From NCBI GenBank assembly GCA_002457555.1, contig NTJQ01000002.1, forward strand, positions 1-64,000: a stretch of DNA of 64,000 bases. The letters are read 5' to 3'. Made by a program: the position numbers and the translations under genes. Below, in pieces: positions 13,876-17,284 of the stretch (the first letter of the stretch is position 1; every line of letters starts with the position of its first letter). Under the pieces are notes generated by a model. It was not told the DNA's origin and searched no databases. It saw only the letters and a list, made by a program, of their open reading frames with translations. Source of the stretch: Marine Group II euryarchaeote MED-G37 (GTDB lineage: Archaea > Thermoplasmatota > Poseidoniia > Poseidoniales > Thalassarchaeaceae).

Positions 13876-15387
13876 TCAACTTACCAATCGAGGCAAAATG
13901 ATTGGAATAATTACAATGAATAAAACGAGTAGACTACTCATTGAACTCAATCTGTTTGCCGCATTCTCAATTCTAATAGGGTCTCCACCGCGCATAATGA
14001 ATCGCATAGTTGAGTGAGCGGCATCCCTGAAGATGTGACCTCCATCGAATGGAATCATCGGAATTAGATTGGCGAATCCTAATAGGAAGTTTATCCAAGC
14101 TAACCAGAAAAGGAAATCAAAAGCAGCCAACATACCTTCCGTTCCGATGTTTGAAGCGATTATCCCGTCACCTGCAATCAACATCGCTCGCTCTTCTAAA
14201 GGCATTGTATGTCCATCATTTTGAATAGGGACACCTAACAAAATCAACGGCGCTACTAGCAATACCAATCCTTTCTGAAGCCCGCTTAAATCATCATCAG
14301 CCAGGAACCCCCAACCATCCACTGCTGCTGTGTTTGAGCGAAGATTACTAACTCCTAGAAATGCATCGCCTTGTTCAATTTCTAGTGTATCCATCAATAC
14401 TCTAGTTTCTTCCATATCACAACCAGTGGTTTGTTGGCATTGGTCCATATGATACTGCCAACGATCTGTAAAGGTGATTTCGATGACCCTAGTTTCAGCG
14501 TCATTATCTTGAGAAGAAATTACAGTAAAATTAGCAACCTCCCCTGAAGAATAATCCTTCATTACCTCAGTGAAATCATCGCGGTCAGTTACTACAAAAT
14601 CGTCTATATGAGTAATTGTCTCATAAGCCATTAGTCCAGCATCTTGCGCTCCTGTCTCGCCAATAATACCAGTCGCGTGAACTCCAGGATTTTTTGCAAC
14701 AAATCCATTCGCGGTTGCAGATAAGAGTACTAAGACTACAAATGTAGCAATCAGGTTGATTGAAGGCCCAGCCGCGAATAATCTCATTCTTTCTCTTCTA
14801 GGTGCGCGAGACATTTCTTCATACTCGGGTTCAGCAAACGCCCCAACCGGAAGTAAACCAGCCAGAAGAAGTCCGAAAGATCGAACTTGCATACCATGCG
14901 CTCTGGCTTGTATTCCGTGACTATATTCATGAATTACTAGTGCAAAAATCAGAGCAATAATAGGCCACCAGAATGGAACAAAACTAGTCACACCGGGAAT
15001 AAGAAGAAGGTCAGAAGCGGGTAAGACCTCTTGTTGTGTAGGAGCCGCAGCGGTTGCCAACGCTGCAGCGATTATCAATAGGATTACACCAAACATCACG
15101 ATAAAGCATAACCAAATAGAAAATTCCCCATACGCTCTCCAAAATCTGCGCGGTTTAGCCAACTGTTCAAGGGCAATCTTACCTCTACCAGTTCTTACCA
15201 TTAGGATGATTCCGAGAACTCTAGTCGCATTCCATTTGTCTAGCGTTCCATTCTGTTCGAAATAAACCAAAGCAAAGTACCAGCCTGCAATCAATACGAG
15301 AGCCCATATTGGAGCCCAACCTCTAACTCCGGCCCAAGCCAGCAATCCCACAAAGAGAATCTGATTTAGGCTCAGGCCCCTTTCCAT
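13876..15387 (-). CDS. Site-2-type (M50) intramembrane metalloprotease with PDZ-like region
   Basis: This is a 503-residue polytopic membrane protein. The zinc motif is ALVIHEYSHGIQA (His153, Glu154, His157). The third ligand is probably in LIPMIPFDGGHIFRDA near residue 455, the counterpart of the family NPxPxLDGG motif. Between them a soluble domain (about 235-300, TGIIGETGAQDAGLMAYETITHIDDF) reads like a PDZ domain. Such proteases cleave membrane-bound regulators or signal-peptide remnants. Its position end to end with signal peptidase I (10 bases apart, convergent) suggests a protein-export neighbourhood, but no specific substrate is visible. Confidence 0.88.
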   Translation of the reverse strand: MERGLSLNQILFVGLLAWAGVRGWAPIWALVLIAGWYFALVYFEQNGTLDKWNATRVLGIILMVRTGRGKIALEQLAKPRRFWRAYGEFSIWLCFIVMFGVILLIIAAALATAAAPTQQEVLPASDLLLIPGVTSFVPFWWPIIALIFALVIHEYSHGIQARAHGMQVRSFGLLLAGLLPVGAFAEPEYEEMSRAPRRERMRLFAAGPSINLIATFVVLVLLSATANGFVAKNPGVHATGIIGETGAQDAGLMAYETITHIDDFVVTDRDDFTEVMKDYSSGEVANFTVISSQDNDAETRVIEITFTDRWQYHMDQCQQTTGCDMEETRVLMDTLEIEQGDAFLGVSNLRSNTAAVDGWGFLADDDLSGLQKGLVLLVAPLILLGVPIQNDGHTMPLEERAMLIAGDGIIASNIGTEGMLAAFDFLFWLAWINFLLGFANLIPMIPFDGGHIFRDAAHSTMRFIMRGGDPIRIENAANRLSSMSSLLVLFIVIIPIILPRLVS

Positions 15388-15806: not shown

Positions 15807-16364
15807 CTATCTCGTAGAATCAGATTTCTCAATAGCCCTTGCTCCATCAGATCGACTGATTAGTGCTAGAAATCTGTGTAAAGGCATTCCATCGTGCCAA
15901 TTTAGGTACGGAGAACCATTTCTCGTAAGTGGTACATTCGGGATACTTCTAGATAGGACTCGAAGTTTTCCTGTTAGCCCTTCTACTGGAACTTTCATTA
16001 CTCTCCAACTATCTCCTCTTACTCCCTTAAGTCGGAAAGCGTAAAGTGGCTGAAGGCCACATTTCTCACCGGTGCTTTTCAGAGCATCGTACTGATATTT
16101 CGTACGACCAGAAAGATAGATTTTGTCTGTTTTTGAGGATTTTACTTCAATTGGCATGCACATATCTCCTCGAAGGGCGAGAATATCCCCAGTACCTTCA
16201 GAACCACTACCTGGTGCTCTCACAACTAAGAATGGGCGTTGACAGACCTGCATGGCCCGTGCTCGCTCAACTTCTGTACACGAGCGGGTAATTGCAACTA
16301 CACCCTTGCGCTCGCCCGCGAGCACTGAGCGTAATTCCCTCTCGTAGACCCCACTCATGTGCAT
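15807..16364 (-). CDS. hjc: Hjc-like Holliday junction resolvase
   Basis: This restriction-endonuclease-fold nuclease is predicted to cut four-way DNA junctions in recombination and repair. YERELRSVL at the N terminus carries the first acidic residue. VVRAPGSGSEGTGDILAL (Asp60) and MPIEVKSSK (Glu73, Lys75) give the D...ExK active site of archaeal Hjc, and KIYLSGRTKYQYDALK matches the following helix. At 185 residues it is longer than typical Hjc (about 120-135). About 30 residues are inserted between the YEREL helix and VVRAP, and there is a C-terminal extension. MHM at 16364 or ATG at 16358 can start it. A divergent RNase H-fold gene lies 128 bases away. Confidence 0.8.
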   Translation of the reverse strand: MHMSGVYERELRSVLAGERKGVVAITRSCTEVERARAMQVCQRPFLVVRAPGSGSEGTGDILALRGDMCMPIEVKSSKTDKIYLSGRTKYQYDALKSTGEKCGLQPLYAFRLKGVRGDSWRVMKVPVEGLTGKLRVLSRSIPNVPLTRNGSPYLNWHDGMPLHRFLALISRSDGARAIEKSDSTR

Positions 16365-16466
16365 AGCGCATTGTCAGGGTTCTTGACGACATCGCTTGAG
16401 CCAGCCTCGTAGTGATACGTTTCGAGGTTTCCAGATTATGTTGGCCCATATCCTGCAAATGTAAGC

Positions 16467-16474
16467 AAATTATA
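16467..16474 (+). promoter_or_regulatory. Candidate TATA box of the RNase H-fold gene
   Basis: AAATTATA is centred about 22 bases before the ATG at 16493, with no ribosome site between. This is compatible with a nearly leaderless transcript and supports 16493 over the upstream in-frame ATG at 16412. Confidence 0.35.
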
Positions 16475-16492
16475 GCAATCCGTGACCTAAGA

Positions 16493-17284
16493 ATGGCAAC
16501 GATTGAAGGCGGAGTGCAATTGAGTCCTATCGTGCCAGAGGTTGCAGTCCGTACTGATGATTTCCGCTTGGCCTACAGATTACTCGGTCGTTTGCGTGAC
16601 TCTGGTATCGAACATATGCAACTTGATCCCGAAAACCCTGTGCCTAACCGTGTTGATTTCTGGATAGCATCTCATGCTGAAGTGGGGCAAACAAATGATA
16701 CAAGAGGAATAGGTTGTGCAGTAGATGAAATTGATTCAGTCATTTCTTCGATTATGAATAAAATTGCTGTAGGCGAAAAAGTCCAACGCATATGTTTCGG
16801 TATCGACCCAGGCCCACGGCCAGGACTCTCTTGGATTGCCGATGGGCGACCTGCAGGATCTATGCAAATGGAATCTGTGGATGCCACCGTCGACCATGTG
16901 ATGGCAATTCTAAATGATTTCATGCCACCTGAATCTGTAGTTAGAATTGGCAATGGTTCGCCAACTATATCTTCCAGAATTGCCAATGTTTGTTTGGCTA
17001 GGGGCTTGGCAGTCCAATTCGTTGACGAGACCTCAACCTCTAGAGGGTCGCGTCATGACCATGTTTCAGCCGCCCGAACAATTTGTTCAAAGGAAGGAAT
17101 TCCCCTTACAGAGCGTCTACAGGTAATCCCTACAGAGGGGGAGGTTCGCGATATTCAACGGCGGAGTCGTAGCATTTCGGAAGGTAGGCTGACAATTCCT
17201 TCAAAGCTTGCCCGAGCCGTTGCTGTTGGGAGGCTAACTCTCAGTGAAGCTGTAGAACTTCACATACGGACACTCGACCGCTGA
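16493..17284 (+). CDS. RNase H/RuvC-fold predicted nuclease (COG2410-like)
   Basis: This 263-residue protein carries the signature of RuvC/YqgF-type RNase H-fold nucleases. The first strand is ICFGIDPGPRPGLSWIADG (Asp105), like the GIDPG of RuvC. A middle strand reads VVRIGNG (150-155), then VQFVDETSTSRG (Asp178-Glu179), recalling the DExxTT of YqgF. Finally RHDHVSAART (Asp189) is in the place of the terminal acidic helix motif. Residues 1-95 form an added N-terminal domain and 210-263 an added basic helical tail. I recall archaeal COG2410 'predicted nuclease (RNase H fold)' proteins of this shape. It is divergent from the hjc-like gene. Activity on junctions or RNA is inference. Confidence 0.68.
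   Translation: MATIEGGVQLSPIVPEVAVRTDDFRLAYRLLGRLRDSGIEHMQLDPENPVPNRVDFWIASHAEVGQTNDTRGIGCAVDEIDSVISSIMNKIAVGEKVQRICFGIDPGPRPGLSWIADGRPAGSMQMESVDATVDHVMAILNDFMPPESVVRIGNGSPTISSRIANVCLARGLAVQFVDETSTSRGSRHDHVSAARTICSKEGIPLTERLQVIPTEGEVRDIQRRSRSISEGRLTIPSKLARAVAVGRLTLSEAVELHIRTLDR

Follow-up and report, generated by a model that had tools for sequence, protein, structure and literature searches.

We identified an unnamed family of archaeal proteins with an RNase H fold whose genes are recurrently paired with radB or hjc. The member that we analysed is encoded in the Marine Group II euryarchaeote MED-G37, in a stretch of 64,000 nucleotides (contig NTJQ01000002.1; hereafter the window), where its gene faces hjc (Table 1). 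We lean, if only slightly, towards reading this 250-residue protein as the Poseidoniales representative of a two-metal, structure-specific DNA nuclease whose substrates would be branched intermediates of recombination or replication. Accounts of junction resolution in archaea usually name Hjc/Hje and Hef. A conserved and unannotated RNase H-fold nuclease candidate adds a new candidate to archaeal recombination, for which the haloarchaea offer a tractable genetic model.

Table 1. Features of the divergent locus in the window, with residues numbered from the revised start codons
Feature	Position	Strand	Basis
Hjc Holliday junction resolvase, 183 aa	15807..16358	-	Pfam Hjc, conserved start, invariant catalytic residues
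Divergent intergenic region, 173 bp	16359..16531	.	Between revised start codons
Conserved element containing a short inverted repeat, 13-38 bp before the hjc start	16371..16396	-	
RNase H-fold nuclease-like protein, 250 aa	16532..17284	+	Conserved GTG/ATG start, upstream stops in relatives; structure; widespread family
N-terminal alpha/beta domain, about residues 1-84	16532..16783	+	AlphaFold secondary structure
RNase H domain, residues 84-192	16781..17107	+	Domain model and structural matches
D92, predicted metal ligand, end of strand 1 (earlier D105)	16805..16807	+	64/64 sequences
E166, predicted metal ligand after strand 5 (earlier E179)	17027..17029	+	64/64 sequences
H177, third active-site position, start of C-terminal helix	17060..17062	+	D33/H24/N7 in 64 sequences
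C-terminal helical tail with GE-x-R-x-I-Q-x-x-SR...GR-x-TI motif	17108..17281	+	Alignments

The divergent gene pair in Poseidoniales

The original prediction had placed an hjc gene and an RNase H-type gene head to head in two divergent open reading frames, first listed at 15807-16364 (minus strand) and 16493-17284 (plus strand). This arrangement is real, and both frames were confirmed with revised starts. The minus-strand product matches the Pfam Hjc family (PF01870) with E = 9.9e-15 and 54.7 bits against a gathering cut-off of 21.1, while it misses the NCBIfam equivalog cut-off for Hjc (42.1 versus 70). The residues of its E...D...E-x-K nuclease site (E6/E8, D58, E71 and K73) are invariant in 26 aligned Hjc sequences. 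With the Pfam match above cut-off and the active site intact, the gene encodes a genuine Hjc, as had been called, whose fold is unrelated to that of the 250-residue protein. Judged from its conservation, the ATG at 16358 is most likely where translation of hjc begins. For the plus-strand gene, the GTG at 16532 is the likeliest start: a GTG or ATG is conserved at this position, and stop codons lie just upstream of it in several relatives. The start that gave the protein its earlier length of 263 residues is not conserved, and the 250-residue form is preferred.

Searched at the protein level, 59 related genomes yielded the nuclease-like gene in 51 cases and Hjc in 57. In each of the 50 Poseidoniales genomes that have both genes, the two lie on the same contig and on opposite strands with their starts facing, and the gap between the matched ends has a median of 131 bp (range 53-166). 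This head-to-head order is far above chance, and the surrounding Poseidoniales genes, encoding an M50 peptidase, a signal-peptidase-like protein and a macro domain, are syntenic as well. Conservation of the pair in related genomes, a check that had been proposed, holds for the Poseidoniales but not for other Thermoplasmatota: in 57 genomes outside the Poseidoniales that have both genes, hjc never lies beside the nuclease-like gene, the nearest being about 4 kb away. Pairing with hjc as a general rule is thereby ruled out.

Within the intergenic region, an element some 25 bp long, which includes the inverted repeat TCA-N7-TGA, is nearly invariant across 16 genomes of the genus. It is recognisable in other Poseidoniales genera, with a TCAAGAACACTTGA-like form in a second family, and no other copy occurs in the window when up to 3 mismatches are allowed. 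The element is also kept in genera where the nuclease-like gene was not found; it belongs to hjc alone. Because it persists there, and the two genes are not neighbours outside the Poseidoniales, the proposal that a shared divergent promoter places the pair under joint control is unsupported. The element could be an operator or leader element of hjc.

Fold, active site and related families

No Pfam or NCBIfam family matches the 250-residue protein, which contains all three motifs on which its fold had been called (GIDPGPRPG, FVDETSTS and RHDHVSAA). The full-length AlphaFold model (pLDDT 88, pTM 0.67) shows an RNase H core that is preceded by an N-terminal alpha/beta domain and followed by a helical tail, which is unaligned or missing in some lineages, for example the Thermoplasmataceae-like one (lineage names given here to families other than the window's own, such as this one for f27, are inferred). 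Modelled alone, the RNase H domain reached pLDDT 90 and pTM 0.84. Its Foldseek matches, all with probability 1.00, were the IS110-family recombinase IS621, RuvC, Tex and RuvX, with TM-scores by query length of 0.68, 0.67, 0.58 and 0.57, respectively (E = 1.7e-4 for Thermus thermophilus RuvC). By its predicted structure the domain belongs to the RuvC/IS110/Tex/YqgF clade, and after comparison with RuvC and YqgF structures the RNase H fold of this type is a confident prediction.

The two predicted metal ligands, D92 and E166, are invariant in all 64 diverse family sequences, and position 177 is always D (33), H (24) or N (7), with H invariant in 49 Poseidoniales. Of the three acidic residues originally singled out, D105 and E179 (now D92 and E166) hold fully, whereas at the third site conservation falls not on D189 (now D176) but on the adjoining H177. 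The haloarchaeal consensus retains DPG, VDE and D-V-L-A-A.

The layout of these residues sets the family apart from RuvC proper. It shares with T. thermophilus RuvC (4ep5) the fold, the aspartate at strand 1 and the D or H that starts the last helix, but its strand 4 does not end in a conserved acid, R138, G140 and G142 being conserved instead, and it lacks the D/H-x-x-D motif, position 180, three residues after 177, being A or S. Since the glutamate E166 follows strand 5, as in YqgF and Tex, the protein is not a RuvC, and the active-site layout rules that assignment out. RuvX/YqgF and Tex have been described as having this acid moved to strand 5 from its place in strand 4, and the same 2014 classification contested the nuclease activity of YqgF-type sites (PMC3985635).

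The resemblance to RuvX/YqgF (PF03652) extends over the RNase H fold (RuvX 7ess), the DxG at strand 1, the acid after strand 5, where the family's V-D-E-x-x-[ST] resembles the DERLT of YqgF, and the aspartate that starts the last helix; D92, E166 and D/H/N177 occupy these sites. Unlike RuvX/YqgF, the family is archaeal and has an extra N-terminal domain and a C-terminal tail. The Pfam RuvX gathering score was not reached, with no match for the window protein and matches in 2 of 64 relatives (best E = 0.0037); an hhalign comparison of the family with E. coli YqgF was not convincing, and RuvX itself was not detected in 20 Thermoplasmatota genomes.

DUF460 (PF04312, COG2433), an archaeal family of the RuvC/YqgF clade, shares the GIDPG motif. 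Weak Pfam DUF460 matches were obtained for 32 of the 64 nuclease-family members (best 4e-4), and the family profile gives weak DUF460 cross-hits in return; the similarity is below the gathering score, spans about 22 residues and is limited to the strand-1 to strand-2 motif. Haloarchaeal DUF460 has its second acid in strand 4 (VAADV), whereas the nuclease-like family does not, and Halobacteria have both families. With motif-only similarity, a different acid position and this co-occurrence, an orthologous relationship to DUF460 is ruled out. No DUF460 above its cut-off was found in 20 Thermoplasmatota genomes.

The best structural match, the RuvC-like domain of IS621, belongs to a recombinase, whereas the nuclease-like protein has no visible transposase partner domain or mobile context and its distribution is broadly vertical. 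A mobile or viral origin was rejected: no relative was found among the phages or viral contigs searched, and the one match among plasmids lies on a haloarchaeal megaplasmid from a species that also has a chromosomal copy.

In a Foldseek search with the whole protein, including the N-terminal domain, alignments to Argonaute structures covered about 250 columns at TM-scores near 0.25. A distant MID-PIWI-like arrangement of the protein is possible on these low-scoring alignments.

Distribution and co-occurrence with Hjc

The family occurs in two archaeal groups, the Thermoplasmatota on the one hand and the Halobacteria and their relatives on the other. A profile search detected it in 303 of 390 Thermoplasmatota genomes. 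The haloarchaeal member recovered in the plasmid search is 31% identical over 92% (E = 6e-16), and with it as query a genome scan gave 65 loci in Halobacteria. In a further scan, which covered a sample of 394 genomes of the haloarchaeal phylum, about 90 matches were full length; the weak matches left over that have long open frames resemble DUF460 proteins. In the family tree, one branch sets off the Poseidoniales (99/100) and another the Halobacteria (100/100), and the Halobacteria are nearest to the Thermoplasmatota families f15, f4, f21 and f23, a join that is weakly supported. No published description of the family was found in the literature searched; arCOG-style annotation may exist elsewhere.

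The gene was not detected in four genera of the window's family, which retain Hjc, or in most of family f17, and it is therefore dispensable. Among the 390 Thermoplasmatota genomes, 257 have both genes, 46 the nuclease-like gene only, 72 Hjc only and 15 neither, the last against 13.6 expected under independence. Family f30 has the nuclease-like gene without Hjc and f17 shows the reverse, a pattern that might suggest backup by complementary loss. Because the presence of the two genes is statistically independent across the 390 genomes, the suggestion was dropped, and the loss patterns do not support the earlier idea of a backup resolvase. With a lineage-specific profile, no Hjc was recognisable in families f30, f37, f38 and f3, in genomes up to 99% complete; in a published comparison, Hjc was enriched in only one clade of the Methanomassiliicoccales (PMC7883539). 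The nuclease-like family may be relevant to the way in which some Thermoplasmatota manage without a recognisable Hjc.

Neighbour genes and the proposed role

In the haloarchaea the neighbour is radB: at 59 of 65 loci it adjoins the nuclease-family gene or lies close to it, and at 56 it is on the opposite strand, with the starts at most 200 bp apart in 34 of these. It was also found in 26 of 30 further Halobacteria loci with short flanks, a set that partly overlaps the 65. The kinship among halobacterial loci means that these counts do not represent independent events. Among 20 deeper-branching loci, 11 have radB, always divergent; their RadB proteins show 32-47% identity, and Rad51-type domains were confirmed in two of them. 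In Haloferax volcanii the gene divergent from radB (HVO_2383) is probably HVO_2382, since HVO_2384 encodes a CBS-domain protein and in Natronorubrum a CBS gene flanks radB on the side away from the nuclease-family gene. A RadB-like gene also occurs in Thermoplasmatota: f23 has it head to head, and in f4 and f21 it is divergent but separated by one gene or about 1.5 kb. Other partners appear elsewhere: FEN1 is encoded directly upstream, in tandem, at five loci of one lineage (L338, L339, L340, L342 and L344), and in two Thermoplasmataceae-like genomes the genes that precede it are uS15 and, directly upstream, one for a RecJ-like DHH protein. In most Thermoplasmatota no recombination gene adjoins the nuclease-family gene. 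What makes the evidence from context independent is the variety of partner genes and the inclusion of deep lineages.

The head-to-head radB genes of Halobacteria support, beyond hjc, the earlier idea that the protein is a partner in recombination. The direction of the original interpretation was thus right, while its reasons, a shared promoter and a backup function, were not. A review reports an interaction between RadB and Hjc (PMC3950489). We propose that D92, E166 and D/H177 would bind two metals, and that the protein, acting beside Hjc and, in other archaea, RadB, would trim or resolve branched DNA in the course of recombination or the repair of forks, a process that it would share with these two proteins. 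Within this proposal, a preference for DNA over RNA and for branched targets would be expected, and strict resolution of Holliday junctions is a possibility that we regard as doubtful. Several observations weigh against the proposal: the N at position 177 in 7 of the 64 sequences, the contested nuclease activity of YqgF-type sites, the lack of an adjoining recombination gene in most Thermoplasmatota, the dispensability of the gene, and its uS15 and Cdc48 neighbours. We think it rather unlikely that the family constitutes a second, RNase H-fold and functionally RuvC-like resolvase of Holliday junctions or branched DNA in Euryarchaea, working with RadB or Hjc and unannotated until now. If it did, such an enzyme could supply resolution in f30, f37, f38 and their class-mate f3, where no Hjc was found.

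A quite unlikely alternative is that this RNase H-fold protein, as suggested for Tex, has no catalytic activity and instead binds nucleic acid and controls RadB, Hjc or RadA. The structural matches include Tex, the third site residue can be N (7 of 64), and RadB, a recombination mediator, is itself a regulator of recombination (PMC5480776). However, two strictly invariant acids and a third position restricted to D, H or N indicate more constraint than binding alone would need.

It is improbable that the protein processes RNA, by analogy with the action of bacterial YqgF on pre-16S rRNA. The YqgF-like layout, with its second acid after strand 5 (PMC3985635), is consistent with such a role, as are the uS15 genes adjacent in families f5, f29 and f40 and close in f27, the SpoU methylase neighbour in f29, and a Cdc48-type AAA ATPase gene that lies nearby, usually downstream, at 46 loci (including L158, L162, L164 and L184) in both archaeal groups. 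The uS15 and Cdc48 neighbours also suit RNA or protein processing, and uS15 may be a bystander, because uS15-RecJ is a standing archaeal neighbourhood (PMC3307487). Against an RNA substrate, the strongest and most widespread neighbours are radB and hjc, and the Pfam RuvX family is not matched above its cut-off.

That the divergent neighbours merely share an inherited order by coincidence, without a functional link, as the synteny of the flanking Poseidoniales genes and a conserved element specific to hjc would allow, is very improbable, because the recombination or repair gene that fills the neighbouring place (hjc, radB, fen1 or recJ) varies between lineages, a pattern that cannot be put down to inherited order by itself.

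An M50 metallopeptidase gene adjoins the nuclease-family gene in family f24 (L170:3447-4979) and adjoins hjc in Poseidoniales (13876-15387 in the window), which may be a vestige of a cluster that the genes once had in common.
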